NCBI GenBank assembly: GCA_010279815.1
Contig: QEOQ01000204.1
Location: forward strand, 1,236 to 65,235
Direction of reading: 5' to 3'
Length of the DNA stretch: 64,000 bases
DNA from: Brachionus plicatilis
Lineage: Eukaryota > Rotifera > Eurotatoria > Ploima > Brachionidae
Below are positions 4,031 through 48,215 of this stretch, in pieces (the stretch's first letter is position 1; each line of letters opens with the position of its first letter). The notes under the pieces were generated by a model, which was not told the DNA's origin, ran no database searches, and was given only the letters and a program-made list of their open reading frames with translations. Both the position numbers and the translations under genes were made by a program.

Positions 4031-5306
4031 GTAATCAAAAAATGTTTAAAATACTAGAAAAGTGATTAAAAAGTGTGGAAAAAGGTATTCAAAAACACGA
4101 TTTATTAATTATATAACTTTAAAACTATTAATTACTGTAATGAGAAATAGTTAAAAATAGATTACAGGATATACAGAAAATAAATTGAATATTCACTCAA
4201 ATATTTTAGAATTTAATTCAAGATTATTTAAAACTGATTATGAACAAACAAGAATTAAATATTTTTCTAATAAATTTGTGCCCAAAATTCAATTAATCAA
4301 GCATTTCATCATCGAATTTTTTAAATTATTCTAATTAAAACTTCAAATTAATTAATTAATTAGTCTAAAAGCTGATTCATAATTTTATATTAATTACTAG
4401 AATATTTATGCTTTAGGAACAGTTTAAAATTTATTTCTTATTTGTTCAGCGTTCGATGGAACAGTAATTTTTCTAGTTGATAATTAATTGTTAAAAAATA
4501 ATTAAAACACTTAATTTTTGTAAATTGTCAGTTTTTTCTATTTCTTTTGAGTGCAAAAAGTCTTTACCCACTATTTTTATGCTTCGAACACAATTTTGTT
4601 AGAGTAAACTTTCAATTTATGTCTTTGAAAAATATATTATAGATCCAGATCAGCATTGATAAGAATAATTTCAATTAGGAATCAATCAAAGTTGTTTCAA
4701 GTGCTTGAGTGATAAAAATAAAAGCAAAACCGAGATAAACTGTTTGAATTTTTTTCAAGTGACAGTTATAAAAAAAAATTCAAAATTTTGTTTTTTTTTT
4801 ATTTCAAAATAAAAAATCAAATCCATAAAATGATCAATTTAAAATTAAAAAATCACAAATTAAATTTAGTTTGATCTGATCCAGACTAAGCGAACTCAAA
4901 ATTGTCTCAATTAGACGATCTTCTTTCACTAGCTGTTCAAATAAATTATTTACCAAATTCCTTTTTACGCTTAATCTACAGAAAAGAATGTAGAAAAAAT
5001 TCACTAGCAAATATTCCAAAAATTTAAACTTACAATTTCAATATAAATAAACACACAATCGGCCATTCGCTCGTACTAAATATTATGTTCTCACTGGTCA
5101 ATCTATTTAATAAAAAAAAAAATTAATTTATTCGCTAGTTTTTCTAATACTATTTACTTAAGTGAATAAACAAAATTTTTCACATGATTTTTAAGTGAAT
5201 TCGATATAACAGTATAATTAAATTCGCTAAATTTTAAAATTTGCTCCAAGCTAAAATTAAAATAATAAATTATTAAACAAAAAACATATTTTTCTACTAA
5301 TCTGTA

Positions 5307-7404
5307 CTATTTGACCAGCTTGTCGTAGAATATTTTTCTTCTTATTTGAGTTTGAGACTTTGAGTCAACAGTCGGTAAAACTCGAACAATCTCCTCATCT
5401 GTTTCTTTAATTTTAAAAATTAAATTTTGATTGTATTCACTGTTAGTGTCATTTTCATCAACGACTGACGCTTTTTCCAGCTTTTTGGTTGTTGACTTGG
5501 CCCCAAAAAATTCTCTGATACGAAGTTGCTGTTTAACAGCTTCCTCTTTAAGCTTGGCATAATCAGGCAATGGTTTTTTAGCTTCTGAGCCTAACCCATC
5601 TGGGACTGGTTCTGCCTGCTTCAAAATTTCCTTTGTATTTTCAGCATCTTTTGAATTATCTTTAATTATGTCCTCGAAGCCTCGTAGTTTTTCCAGCATC
5701 TCTTCTTCACCATTGTCATTTTGATCAGAATTTGTTTTGTTGAAGCCTGACGCTTGACTTGTGTAGTCAATGTCACTAAAAAAAGCAGTTTTTGCAGCAA
5801 CTAGTTTATCACATGCTTCTAAATGTTCTTCTCTTTCTCTTTCCTGATTAACACTCGGTCTATCGGATGGCTCTGTTTGTTTCAAATAGGATTTGGTTCG
5901 ATTAGTAATTAATTCCTTAATTCGCTGAATAATAAACTCAATAAAATAAAGTTGGGTTAAATTTTTTTCAGATATTTGAAAAACTTGTGCACCTTCACCC
6001 AACTCTATACATTCATCAACTTTTTTTATTTTAAATAAAAAAATTTTCTTCAAGTTGGTAAAATCGGTTGGTTTTTTGTGAATATCAATTGATTCAATAA
6101 ATTTTTTTTTAAGTTGTTCAGATCGTTCTTTAAGGTCTGAATCAATTTGAGTTTCATTTAGAGCATTACATTTTTCTACTTCTAATGCTTTAGATTCGTA
6201 CTGTGACTCTGTGGAGGGTTCTTGAATTTTAAATTTTTCAGTCCAATCTTTTTCCATTTGCTTCAATTCACTCTCAATCTCAACAACTAAATTTTTATCG
6301 ATTTGCTCCGATGCTACATGATTTGTTGTCTTCTGAAGCGGCTTAGGCTCGAGTTTTTTAGGTTTTGGAACTTTGGTTGAAGGCCAAAATTTAATTTCAT
6401 TTGCCCCGTCACCTTTCAAAAAGTCCGCAGTCTGTCGAAGCCATACTGGAACATTTGAAATCTGAGCTTCCAAATATTTAGATGATTTGTAACATTCATT
6501 TGAGCAATATCTCTAAATTTAGGTATTTTAGAATTTGAAATTTTGTTTTTTATCAATTGAATAATTACTTTTCTATCAGTTAAATCATAAACTTTATTCA
6601 ATTTGGTTGAAATTTGGTATTTTTTTGTAGGAATCTTAAAAATTTGGCTTTAGTAATAGATAAAATAATAAATTAAAAAAGTTGTCTTGTTATGTACCGT
6701 AGTTTCTTGAAAAAAAAAAGTATGTCCTAAAATATGAAAATAGCAAATTCGTGAAATTCAGTATCTTTTAATTTTCTATTAGAATAAAACAATATAACAA
6801 ACTTGGTTTTATTATGTAACTCTTAAAATAAAATAAAAATTATACAATAATTTACTGCATTATTTATTTTCACTTTTTTGTACTCAACTTCAAAAAGTTA
6901 AATTATTGGGCTTAAGAAACACAAAAATCTGGTCGTTTTAGACCAAAATCTAAAATAAAGTTTAACTCAGCCGTAAATAAAGAAATTATTCAAATTTAAT
7001 TTTTCACTTTTTGTTTTCTTAATGCCATAACCTGGATATAAAATTAAAGATTTTGTCAAAAAACTTATTATAAATACTTTCCAAAAACTCTAAATTTAAA
7101 TTCGGTGTTCTTTTATGCTACATTTATAAAAATTTCAATAAATACATTTATTAATTCATGAGAGCAGCATAGATATCCGCACAATTTTGAGACAAATCGT
7201 TCTTCCACAATTTCTTCATAATGATAAGGTTCAATTTGTTTTAGCTTGATTAATTAAGTTTTAAAATATGAATAAATGAAAACGTTGGAAAGTATTTACG
7301 AAAGGAACAATCTCCTTTTCAGGCAAAGTTTCTTGCGATAGCTTGATCACTGTTTTGTCAGCCGCATCCAAAAATTTTTTTTTTTCTTGAATCTTTTTAT
7401 CCAT
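5307..7404 (-). CDS. RPAP2: RPAP2 / Rtr1-type RNA polymerase II CTD phosphatase
   Basis: Removes Ser5 phosphate from the RNA polymerase II C-terminal domain and helps polymerase import. Exons on the minus strand: 7404-7300, 7244-7146, 6634-6569 and 6512-5307, all phase 0, giving about 491 aa. Exon 2 carries 'HYEEIVEERFVSKLCGY' with the first Cys pair; exons 3-4 join to 'NKVYDLTDRK' plus 'RYCSNECYKSSKYLEAQI', giving the second pair of the Rtr1 zinc site (C-x4-C...C-x3-C) and then 'VPVWLRQ', as in human RPAP2. The C-terminus repeats the human tail pattern ('KPLPDYAKLKEE', 'LRIREFF', 'QTQIRRKIFYDKL'). The middle is low-complexity and charged. Intron 2 is about 510 bp, the others about 55 bp. The gene begins 260 bp after the PSMB7 stop on the same strand, and a pyrimidine-rich AG lies 3 bases before the ATG, which could be a trans-splice site. 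Confidence 0.93.
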
Positions 7405-7664
7405 TATCTTGAAAGTTAAAAAATAAATAAATTGAAGTTTGCCATTTCTTCCGAAACAAAGAAGCCTAAATCTTTGTTTCATGCTTTATTTTGAAAATAA
7501 AATTAATAAAAAGTTATTCCTCTAATTTATTATATTCGTCGCTATAAAATTAAATTTTCCAAATACAATTTATTTTAAAGTTGAATGTTTGGAACAACTC
7601 TTTAAGAAAAAAGTTATAAATATAAATATAAATCATATAATAGACAAAGTTTTGAGGAATGTTT

Positions 7665-36541: not shown

Positions 36542-39500
36542 CTAAATATTTTCAATTAATAGCTGGAGGTAGTATCTCGAGTGCATTTCGATGTCACAGC
36601 TCAAATCATCTAGATTTGTATAACGGGTTCGATTTGGATCAAACAAGCATTTCATATACTCAACGATCATTTCCTTAAAAAAATTAAAATTATTAAAACA
36701 TTCTCTGAATAAAATGTTTTATTTATATTTTAAAAAATCTTTTTATTCCAATGCTCACTTTAATTTCAAATTTAGACCTGTATTTATTATTAATAAGACA
36801 TATAGCCAACTCTCTATTATTCTGAAAATTCAGTATTCGGAGATATCCTCATGGTTGTGATCCCTATTTAAATGCTACAATCCAAAAAATCGCGTTTTTT
36901 CATTAAACAATAAATTTTATTTTGTACACTTACAAAATATTTAAAAAAAATTTTAAACAAATAATAATAAGCTTAAATCTAATAATTTTTTGCATCAAAA
37001 ATCGCTTCAATTGCTCAATTCTGAGTGCAGGGCATAAATTTGATGAGATTAAAAAATCAGCATTGAAATTAAATAAATAGTGCAGAAAAATTTTCACTAA
37101 TGTTAAAATATGGCAAAAATTTTACTTTTAAATTTGTACAAGAACGATTTAGTTCTTCCTCTGAACCTAAAAACCCCCATGCCAAAACAGGCACCAAATA
37201 TTCGTTGATAGAATAAAACCGTGAAATGAATCCATCAGGATATTTCAACAGTCTTCTTTTAGCCTTCAAAACTGACCAGACTGCAGTAGCTAATGTAGTT
37301 TTTTTAAAAGATTGAGACAGCCAACGATTCTGAATAACCGATGTAATAGCTGATGGCGGACTTTCAAGGTCTTCAAAGGCATCCAGAAGAATGAAATCCA
37401 AGGCTATGTCATAAAAATTCATTATTTTCACATCTCGAGTTGCCAATTCATCTTTTATANNNNNNNNNNNNNNNNNNNNNNNNNNNNNNNNNNNNNNNNN
37501 NNNNNNNNNNNNNNNNNNNNNNNNNNNNNNNNNNNNNNNNNNNNNNNNNNNNNNNNNNNNNNNNNNNNNNNNNNNNNNNNNNNNNNNNNNNNNNNNNNNN
37601 NNNNNNNNNNNNNNNNNNNNNNNNNNNNNNNNNNNNNNNNNNNNNNNNNNNNNNNNNNNNNNNNNNNNNNNNNNNNNNNNNNNNNNNNNNNNNNNNNNNN
37701 NNNNNNNNNNNNNNNNNNNNNNNNNNNNNNNNNNNNNNNNNNNNNNNNNNNNNNNNNNNNNNNNNNNNNNNNNNNNNNNNNNNNNNNNNNNNNNNNNNNN
37801 NNNNNNNNNNNNNNNNNNNNNNNNNNNNNNNNNNNNNNNNNNNNNNNNNNNNNNNNNNNNNNNNNNNNNNNNNNNNNNNNNNNNNNNNNNNNNNNNNNNN
37901 NNNNNNNNNNNNNNNNNNNNNNNNNNNNNNNNNNNNNNNNNNNNNNNNNNNNNNNNNNNNNNNNNNNNNNNNNNNNNNNNNNNNNNNNNNNNNNNNNNNN
38001 NNNNNNNNNNNNNNNNNNNNNNNNNNNNNNNNNNNNNNNNNNNNNNNNNNNNNNNNNNNNNNNNNNNNNNNNNNNNNNNNNNNNNNNNNNNNNNNNNNNN
38101 NNNNNNNNNNNNNNNNNNNNNNNNNNNNNNNNNNNNNNNNNNNNNNNNNNNNNNNNNNNNNNNNNNNNNNNNNNNNNNNNNNNNNNNNNNNNNNNNNNNN
38201 NNNNNNNNNNNNNNNNNNNNNNNNNNNNNNNNNNNNNNNNNNNNNNNNNNNNNNNNNNNNNNNNNNNNNNNNNNNNNNNNNNNNNNNNNNNNNNNNNNNN
38301 NNNNNNNNNNNNNNNNNNNNNNNNNNNNNNNNNNNNNNNNNNNNNNNNNNNNNNNNNNNNNNNNNNNNNNNNNNNNNNNNNNNNNNNNNNNNNNNNNNNN
38401 NNNNNNNNNNNNNNNNNNNNNNTTAAAAAATTTTAAATAAATAATAATAAGCTAAAATCTAATATATTTTTGCATCAAAAATCGCTTCAATTGCTCAATT
38501 CTGAGTGCAGGGCATAAATTTGATGAGATTAAAAAATCAGCATTGAAATTAAATAAATGGTGCAGAAAAATTTTCACTAATGTAAAAATATGGTCAAAAT
38601 TTTACTTTTAAATTTGTACAAGAACGATTTAGTTCTTCCTCTGAACCTAAAAACCCCCATGCCAAAACAGGCACCAAATATTCGTTGATAGAATAAAACC
38701 GTGAAATGAATCCATCAGGATATTTCAACAGTCTTCTTTTAGCCTTCAAAACTGACCAGACTGCAGTAGCTAATGTAGTTTTTTTAAAAGATTGAGACAG
38801 CCAACGATTCTGAATGACCGATGTTATAGCTGATGGCGGACTTTCAAGGTCTTCAAAGGCATCCAGAAGAATGAAATCCAAGGCTATGTCATAAAAATTC
38901 ATTATTTTCACATCTCGAGTTGCCAATTCGTCTTTTATATTTCTCCAATTGCTTTCAATTGAGACAAAGTTTATCATTTCATCATAAGCTTCGAATAACT
39001 TAGTGCTATCTCTATCGGCTTTTTGGAATAAAACACCAAGCATCAATTTACCCTGTTCAGTGAACCACTGCTTCTTACTTCGTTCTTGCAAAAGCCTTTC
39101 AAAACCGAGACGGATTACATGTAATTTAGCCGCAAAATCATCTTCTGATCTACAGTTCAGAAGCTCAGTTCTTGAAACCCGGTACTTAACCTTCCCTAAA
39201 ACAACACTGCTCATTGCCATTTCATACAGCACATTTTTTTCGTCTTTATTTTCAATATTTTCCAGCATTTCGGCAGTCAGCCATTCCACATCCTTAAAAT
39301 TAAATAGATTTTTTTGGTGCCGTGAATTCAAGAACAAAAAAGTCTAAAATTGGTTCTGTCAATTGTAGAAGATGTCACTGTCAATTTATAAATTGTGTCA
39401 TTTTGTAAAATGACTTGGCAAATGATAAAATTCCAGAGAAAATAAATTGTATATTCACAAAATTTTTTTTTTTTTCAACTTGCCTATGAGGCTTAAATTT

Positions 39501-42500
39501 TTTAAATAAATAAATAAGGCAGTCCACATACTTTCTTTTGGGCTAAGTTAAGAATTTATAAAATGCCCTCTTGCTATGAGACGGTCTTTTCGAAAAGCTG
39601 AGTTCAAGTTTGGCTTAAAATGGAAAATTTTTCAATAAAAAATTTTGATAAATTAAATTATTGATTAATTATCTGTTTAATTTTTGTAGAATTTAAATTT
39701 TACAAATATTTTTATAAATGAAAATAAATTTTTGCAATTAACTTTTGGTAAAAACATTAAAAATTAGTTATTTTTGTATTTTTGAATTTTCAAAATGCCT
39801 AGTCAGCGAAAATTTTATTATTTGCCTAGTCATTTTACAAAATGACACATTTTACAAATTGATAGTGACATTGATAATTCATTTAATTTTAAATCAATGC
39901 AATTTTGAGTAAAAATGAACACGGTTATGCGATTTGGAACGAAAATTCAATGAATTGACAAGCTTTGTGCAGTATCATATTGGTTTTTTTGTACTTGAAC
40001 CTTTTATTCAATCTTTTTATCGGGAGGCCGATAGCCAACTTCGGTTTAGCGTTTTGGGATTTTTATCAAGAATCAATTAAAAAAATTCATTGAAAAAAAA
40101 AAGAATTAATATTAGAATTTTAAAATCGGACAGCTACCATAGCAAGGCTACATATAGAATTGATCTGCAATTAGTCTACTGTAGCTTATTTTATTTTTAT
40201 TATTATTATTAATTAAAAAGTAAAAAAAAAGACTGAGAAATTCAGTTAATTTGAAAATTTAAATTACAACATCAGTTTTAATTTTGCGCTTGAAATTTTT
40301 TTGGATATTCTAAATTATCAACTGGAGCTATTTTATCTAGTACCAGTCCTAAAAATAATAAGAAATAACGAAAAATTTAGTTATTAGTTAATAAATAAGA
40401 AAAAATTGAAATTGATTTATTTAATTTTTTTCAAAGAGATTTTACTTCGATATTTATTTATTTCTTAGCTGTTGAAAGGTCAAATGTTTCTATTAATATG
40501 GGACTTAAGTTTTTAAATAAATGAATTTTCAATCACCATTCTCAAAGCTAAAAATAATTTTAAAAATAACTTGTTTCTCAATTTAAAATTCTGAAATTCT
40601 CATTTGAGGAGAGACTAAGAAAATTAAGGCTGCAAAAACTGTCTGAAAGGAGAGAAAGAGGAGATATGATACAGATGTTCAAATTCGTCAGGGGCTACAA
40701 TAAAGTAAACTGGTTTCATCCAAACATGCCTGCTAACTCACTCTCGCAGACTGGACCGGCTGGGTCCATTAGAGGGGGTCCACATCGTTTAAGACAGCAA
40801 CGAACAAATTGTAGAAAAAGAGAAAACTTTTTCACAAATAGAGTGGTGAAAGGATGGAACAAACTGCCAACACAAATATGTGAATCCAGAACAGTTAATG
40901 GTTTTAAAAACAAGTTTGACAAAGCGCAAACAATATAAGCTACCATAGCTTGGAGTCTACTGTCTCTAAGCTTCGTAACTGACCAAACGTGGGTCATTTA
41001 CTGTAGTTACTCTTTATTATTATTATTATTTATTTATTTCTTAGCTGTTGAAAGGTCAAATGTTTCTATTAATATGGGACTTAAGTTTTTAAATAAATGA
41101 ATTTTCAATCACCATTCTCAAAGCTAAAAATAATTTTAAAAATAACTTGTTTCTCAATTTAAAATTCTGAAATTCTCATTTGAAAAATATTTATAGAAAA
41201 TTTAAAATCGAATTTTTCATAATTCAAATAATTGACATGACCAATTTTAAGCTTATAAATGTAAATAATTTTTATTCATTTTTGTTAATTTAAAAATTTT
41301 TTTTTTCATAAAAATATAAATTAACTTACAGAATCAGCTGAAACAAAACTTTCATTATCATCATCACTAAGATAACCGTACCGTCTTGAATAACTTCCGG
41401 CAGGTGAGTTAACAAAATCCGAATTTTCTCTTTTTATTTGACGATCACTGTAACTTCTGGCCGGGTCTGTTTTCAGCAATGCTTCTGAATATAATTGCTG
41501 TTTGATTGCTAATCTAGACTGAATAATTTGAAGTGTTTGACTTGGTTTGACCAATTTTTTACCACAATCAACTGTGAGATTATTTGCACTTTCCAGCAAA
41601 TTTCTCAGTTTATAGACTAAATCAGCGTGTTCATCATTCTAAAATAAGATTTTATTATTTTTAAGGCAATGTAAATTTTAGAAAAAAAAACTCAACAACT
41701 TTTTAGGGTTCTTTTTTCCAAGTGAAAATTTTTTTGGCCTAGATCTTTTACCTAGTTAAAAATACGAGCATCGTTTTATAAGATTAACTCTATTCTTTTT
41801 TATAAATTAATTAAAAAATTTTGAAAAATAAAAAGAGTGATTACAAATTTTACTGAATGAACAACTGAATAAAATTTACCGTCATTTAGCAAAAAAAAGT
41901 GTACACTAGTAGTCTCTTTTAATTCTCTCATTATATTTAAGTCTATCTACATTATTCGTTTTGTCAGTTAGAATGTTAATACAAAAATTTCATATATTTA
42001 TTGTTTCTTAAATCTCAGGGAGCTTTAGCCCGGCACAAATAAAACAAATAAATATATAAATTTTTTCAAAAGACTAAAATTGGTTCTGCAAATTGTTTTA
42101 GCTTATTCATTCAACGTATCATTTAATTTCAGCCATAACAAAATTTTAAATAAAATAACTCATACTGACGGATGAAAATTATGGATAAAAATTTTTGCAG
42201 AAGTTAGATTTAGCTGATACATTTTACAGAACCATTTTTGAGTATTTTGGCAAAAAAAATTATTGAGTTTTTTCATTTTTCTTCTGCTTTTTTGTTCAAA
42301 AATTCACAGTGCCATTTTAAACATACTGGTAGAGCGAGTGTATTTGATTTCATGTATTCAGCGGACTCTATATGATCAAGTGCTGTTTCCCAAGACTTGA
42401 TCGCTTGATCCAAATAATTTAGTCCTAGTAAATTTTAAAATTATAATTTTTTATGGGAAGAAAAATAGAAAAACCTAATTCCAGCAGTTCCTGGGCCTGC

Positions 42501-48144: not shown

Positions 48145-48215
48145 TGCACTGGCCGGGAATCGAACCCGGGCCGCCCGCGTGGCAGGCGAGCATTCTACCA
48201 CTGAACCACCAGTGC
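48145..48215 (-). tRNA. tRNA-Gly-GCC: tRNA-Gly (anticodon GCC)
   Basis: 71 nt without an intron. The 7-bp acceptor stem GCACTGG/CCAGTGC is perfect. The D arm contains the A box (TGGTTCAGTGGTAGAA region). The anticodon loop TGCCACG sits on a GC-rich stem and the B box GGTTCGATTCC is in the T arm. The discriminator is A. It is nearly identical to animal cytosolic tRNA-Gly(GCC) and stands out as the only GC-rich block in this intergenic region. Confidence 0.98.

Follow-up and report, generated by a model that had tools for sequence, protein, structure and literature searches.

The window, that is, the whole 64,000-nt stretch of Brachionus plicatilis DNA analyzed here, contains a real and unusual structure in an intron of the mitoguardin (Miga) gene: a 5'-truncated copy of a non-LTR retrotransposon (LINE) placed between two identical 157-bp sequences, which are best read as a target-site duplication (TSD). 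The structure most likely represents a single aberrant LINE insertion, of a kind already published for human L1. An earlier note on this DNA had proposed a LINE outside rDNA for which a widely staggered cleavage would be characteristic; this claim was not supported by our results.

Structure of the insertion in the mitoguardin intron

The features of the locus are listed in Table 1. The two copies of the direct repeat agreed at 157 of 157 bases with a spacing of 576 and abutted the 419-bp LINE fragment exactly at both ends. The outermost neighboring bases differed on both the left and the right, and the repeat stopped outside both copies. A genome-wide search of the assembly (102,883,380 bases in 173 contigs) returned two matches to the 157-mer, both at 40451-41183. 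Thus, the 157-mer is target DNA and not an LTR, a part of the element or a member of a repeat family. With the 157-mer confined to this place, the element has no terminal repeats of its own, as is the case for LINEs. The LINE fragment is antisense to mitoguardin and lies in an intron whose donor was placed by eye at ~41330. One mitoguardin exon was identified by Pfam, whereas two further presumed exons of this gene gave no Pfam match. The first description of the locus, with identical flanks, the element exactly between them and a unique host sequence in an ordinary intron, was therefore accurate.

Table 1 Features of the mitoguardin intron locus (positions in the window)
Feature	Position	Strand	Remarks
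Mitoguardin (Miga) coding exon, within open stretch across intron	38597..39343	-	Pfam PF10265, E 5.5e-98
5' TSD copy	40451..40607	+	Final 3 bases (TGA) common to element, hence 154-157 bp
LINE (non-LTR retrotransposon) 3' end, 5'-truncated, 419 bp	40608..41026	+	Antisense in mitoguardin intron
LINE ORF C-terminal part, open, 109 aa (P0001), stop included	40609..40938	+	
3' UTR and (ATT)n tail	40939..41026	+	
3' TSD copy	41027..41183	+	Starts TATTTATTTATTTC, tail-like

At the 5' junction, the 157-bp duplication finishes with ATTTGA. The same TGA precedes GGAGAGAC in three sister copies (L005, L007 and L012, read on the reverse strand), which have TATGAGGAGAGAC at the place matching the 5' junction of the window copy. 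Since TGA is common to the element and the duplication, a true length of 154-157 bp is obtained for the latter. At the 3' junction, the (ATT)n tail runs into the first bases of the second copy, which are a good match for tail priming; the tail here meets the TATTTATT stretch, which in the first copy is at 40451. Microhomology at the 5' junction and a tail-matching 3' junction are usual in LINE insertion. The G+C content of the window is 27%.

Full flanking copies could also have been obtained if the LINE had inserted, without any duplication, into a pre-existing perfect 157-bp tandem dimer. Such an insertion would have to fall on the exact junction of the dimer (roughly 1 in 150 positions), and its left edge would need to match the position of the TATTTATT priming stretch as well; moreover, the repeat sequence stops outside both 157-bp copies. 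This origin seems extremely unlikely, even though the family does meet tandem repeats elsewhere (L018, with a spacing of 118-120 bp, and L023/L027, with a 45-bp array).

A different concern is the assembly itself. A heterozygous insertion without duplication might have been mis-joined, the element of the filled allele then being preceded by 157 bp taken from the empty one. Runs of N do occur in the sequences examined: the window has 963 N and L040 has 1,848 N, and others reach locus ends; some of these runs need not be gaps. On either side of the run in the window (37460-38422) lies a copy of the mitoguardin C-terminal exon (36945-37459 and 38425-38939; 515 bp, 97.9% identity). The edges of this duplication coincide with those of the run, and it probably represents contig ends that were left unmerged at a gap in the assembly. 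The lack of clean duplications at sister copies would also fit an artefact. However, both junctions of the insertion are free of N, and the two 157-bp copies show zero differences, whereas those beside the N run differ by 2%. Both joints are exact, and a 3-bp microhomology such as that on the 5' side is typically seen where LINEs are joined; extensive overlap would be required by an assembler. The absence of Ns and the exact joints make an assembly fault at 40451-41183 less likely, and on balance we consider it improbable.

The LINE family

When the first 403 bp of the element were used as a query, at least 41 matches were found genome-wide (with 40 of 46 candidates scored), and a 91-bp stretch (40930-41020) had 28 matches in the assembly. 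Sister copies were spread over many contigs. They shared a 3' end with a simple-repeat tail and varied in their 5' truncation, as LINE copies do: 19 element start positions were observed among the 20 copies compared, L008 and L014 having the same one. The normal tail was missing in L016 and L019. The window copy keeps only the C-terminal part of the ORF, and Pfam gave no match for this 109-aa fragment itself; in a longer sister copy (L009), a reverse transcriptase was identified in a 232-aa fragment (RVT_1, E 1.2e-25). We take the family to be probably CR1/L2-like, a placement based on motifs in the RT and C-terminal fragments and not on a tree. These data support the assignment of the window element to the 5'-truncated non-LTR retrotransposons (LINEs), in a low-copy family.

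A sister copy on contig C148 was 100% identical to the window element over all 403 bases. Together with the 157/157 identity of the flanks, this suggests that the insertion in the window is apparently recent. Both the truncated element, recognized earlier from its 419 bp and seen here as a LINE 3' end with an open frame, a 3' UTR, an (ATT)n tail and other family members, and the recent mobility proposed for it were thus supported.

In the same intron and orientation, ~235 bp upstream of the window element, a diverged and very short 3' end, seemingly related to the same LINE, was noticed by eye at 40133-40216, with shared CTACCATAG and TACTGTAG motifs and an ATT-rich tail. It was absent from the matches to the 403-bp and 91-bp queries.

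Target-site duplications at sister copies

If the element habitually made a wide second-strand stagger like that of R9, as the earlier note had suggested, long duplications would be expected at most copies. Short duplications at the other copies had been named there as the observation that would count against this idea. We therefore examined the flanks of the family members. After the 11 weakest of the 41 matches had been left out, 30 loci were oriented and 21 copies were usable, that is, both ends could be read. The nine excluded loci comprised L009, L017, L024, L025, L026, L028 and L032 (5' end unreached, rearranged, or one element cut twice) and the tandemly arranged L023 and L027. The 5' junctions were placed by comparison with longer copies; several of them are approximate (slack of 12 bases), and that of L010 is based on one comparison. 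The score for each copy was the best ungapped duplication from the tail to the 5' junction, using flanks of 485-1500 bp upstream and 1459-1500 bp downstream.

The window copy had a score of 157, whereas the other 20 of the 21 copies had scores of 0-11 (highest in L011 and L021). In a null set of 420 mismatched flank pairs, the scores averaged 5.3 and reached 13 at most. None of these 20 measurable copies, including L018, had an ungapped duplication above background. A TSD exceeding 100 bp was thus a rare event in this family, found in the ungapped test at one of 21 copies, the 5'-truncated 419-bp copy of the window, with L018 being ambiguous when gaps were allowed. The best alignments, which covered 17 bp in L011 (two mismatches) and 13 bp in L021 (one mismatch), could be true short duplications but were within the range of the null. 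It should be noted that short duplications may have been lost from older copies.

Gapped BLAST of all 30 loci revealed further strong repeats abutting both ends at L018 and L023/L027 only, and no long repeat was observed when L009, L024 and L025 were tried with uncertain junctions. In addition, the 5' flanks of 15 of the 20 copies (L010, L016, L018, L021 and L031 being omitted) were used in a concatenated genome-wide search, in which 40 of 792 candidates were scored; none of these was a second perfect copy.

At L018, flanks of 130 bp with 86% identity abut the element at both ends in the gapped alignment. This locus contains diverged local repeats at 888-1052 and 1926-2115, which include TTAGATAAGATAATTTT with a spacing of 118-120 bp and also occur beyond the flanks. 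The flank pair is 86% alike compared with 84-95% for other unit pairs. Since the flanks are no closer to each other than other nearby units, we read them as a local repeat and set L018 aside as a long target duplication, although they may represent an old duplication and the case is ambiguous. Tandem Repeats Finder reported no array at L018.

At L023/L027 (contig C3), a repeat of 52 bp with 96% identity is found in the arrangement (repeat + element) twice, beside a 45-bp array. It was regarded as a tandem duplication of repeat and element and was not counted as a target duplication. Within L023 (1331-2619; C3:897747-901086), a 45-bp repeat unit and a truncated LINE copy are duplicated in tandem, and the second LINE copy is interrupted by ~360 bp that resemble a small DNA transposon, the ends of this insert being inverted as judged by eye. 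On contig C36 (L012/L051; C36:440379-446600), a segmental duplication with 95-97% identity and a period of ~2.1-2.2 kb extends over the initial 243 bp of a LINE copy. A 93% identical upstream copy of the L012 5' flank belongs to this segmental duplication, which contains part of the element, and was rejected as a TSD.

The C36 and C3 cases indicate that segmental duplications involving copies of this family exist, and the second 157-mer of the window might likewise have been made after insertion, by template switching or segmental tandem duplication. However, in both cases parts of the element were copied, whereas the window element is single and the repeat edges lie at its ends. Two events would be required in place of the one needed for target-primed reverse transcription (TPRT), and such an origin is very unlikely.

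Empty sites were obtained for two sister copies, L030 and L022, from other copies of the dispersed repeats that host them, with junctions determined by eye. Comparison of L030 with L052 and L053 (empty site ATCAC/TAATG) showed that 0-1 bp was duplicated and that all target bases were kept. At L022 (compared with L054-L056), ~5 bp (TTAAT) were duplicated and 15 bp of filler were present at the 5' junction. Thus, the duplications left by one LINE family at three sites measure ~0, ~5 and 154-157 bp, and the window copy is an outlier by ~30-fold relative to L030 and L022.

The two empty sites largely contradict a habitual wide stagger of the element. The ungapped survey, the gapped BLAST and the flank search all point in the same direction, the window copy and possibly L018 being the cases that would fit, and we find such a habit barely credible. 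The short duplications at other copies that had been named against it are mostly what was observed, again with L018 as the ambiguous locus.

Proposed mechanism

We consider it quite likely that the insertion arose in a single TPRT event, in which the second strand was attached at an end 154-157 bp away from the first nick via the 3-bp microhomology. The bottom strand would have been opened at the TATTTATT stretch (40451), either by the element endonuclease or at an existing nick. The (ATT)n tail would have paired there and primed a 419-nt cDNA. A 3' end of the top strand, located 154-157 nt downstream, may then have been joined to this cDNA, with TGA serving as a 3-base microhomology, and the target would have been duplicated when the long 3' overhang was filled in. 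In such a nick-stagger model, the size of the duplication reflects how far from the first nick the second strand is attached, and the wide stagger may reflect a distant or pre-existing second nick used during the 5'-truncation repair. Considering that the two sister empty sites have duplications of only ~0-5 bp, the wide stagger appears to belong to the event in the window and not to the cleavage chemistry of the element.

The stagger of 154-157 bp might also have been set by chromatin, with the top-strand attachment located in the linker beyond one nucleosome. This is a very doubtful reading; if true, long LINE duplications, here and in other animals, would be expected to cluster near nucleosome-repeat lengths.

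Comparison with known systems

A long duplication is a regular feature of R9, which is reportedly specific to rDNA, judging from the title of the original R9 paper. Long direct repeats are also known for RTE-1 of Caenorhabditis elegans. The window insertion resembles R9 in that a non-LTR element is accompanied by a duplication of about the same length. On the other hand, its target is a mitoguardin intron and not a fixed rDNA site, and no other copy of the window family has a clean long duplication. According to PMC6895275, the R9 duplication in bdelloid rotifers is 126 bp, the usual duplication of APE LINEs is 10-20 bp, and second-strand cleavage during LINE integration is poorly understood.

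Human L1 offers a closer parallel. PMC5223499 reports that L1 TSDs of >100 bp occur in HeLa cells but never in over 10% of events, and that they were found in 4 of 7, 21 of 23 and 22 of 28 insertions in XPA-, XPC- and XPD-deficient cells, respectively; large L1 TSDs are also attributed there to Gilbert 2002/2005 and Symer 2002. In PMC2912911, 5'-truncated L1 insertions in HeLa cells are described as often coupled with radical target changes, extremely long TSDs among them. For L1 insertions in vivo, the same source reports that 5' truncation is associated with short TSDs, its collection being restricted to TSDs of 5-30 bp, and to that extent it speaks against the single-event reading proposed here. 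The window insertion shares with human L1 a LINE duplication of >100 bp, seen in a minority of events in repair-proficient cells. The human data come from cell culture, whereas the window copy belongs to another LINE family and was inserted naturally, in a genome that is small and AT-rich. With regard to the repair genes, a profile search with XPA_C gave no match in the assembly, but none in any control genome either, and the Rad4/XPC domain was found at two places in the assembly.

ZfL2-2 is a CR1/L2-type LINE. The window family resembles LINEs of this type in the RVT_1 domain of the longer sister copy, the 5' truncation and the microhomology at the 5' junction, its putative placement among them being based on motifs and not on a tree. 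Pathways of 5' joining have been addressed for zebrafish ZfL2-2 in PMC4760211.

The window insertion would provide a natural case, outside mammalian cell culture, of a LINE duplication ~10 times the usual length. The difference between 0-5 bp and 154-157 bp within one low-copy family argues that the element does not fix second-strand cleavage, which may fall to host nicks and repair.

Other LINEs and direct repeats

A different LINE was observed on the minus strand of L035 (4678-8808; contig C69), whose two open frames encode 291 and 1012 aa. It belongs to a small family, with 38 matches to its 3' region. A duplication of 15-17 bp was found at L057, one of the three copies read; the other two (L058 and L059) had no shared 14-mer between their flanks (~400 bp upstream vs 540-580 bp downstream).

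We also scanned 296,630 bases in 37 sequences for direct repeats (BLAST with low-complexity filter; at least 97% identity, at least 90 bp, less than 9 kb apart). Only two other such repeats were found, the flanks of the N run in the window and a tRNA-Glu pair. Repeats of 75 bp in L042 and 121 bp in L036 look like pieces of another repeat family and were set aside. The direct repeats of L043 were rejected as a TSD, being two tRNA-Glu genes; six tRNA genes, including three for tRNA-Glu, are clustered at this locus (4395-7467; contig C12). A minus-strand tRNA gene is also present in the window at 48145-48215 (Rfam).
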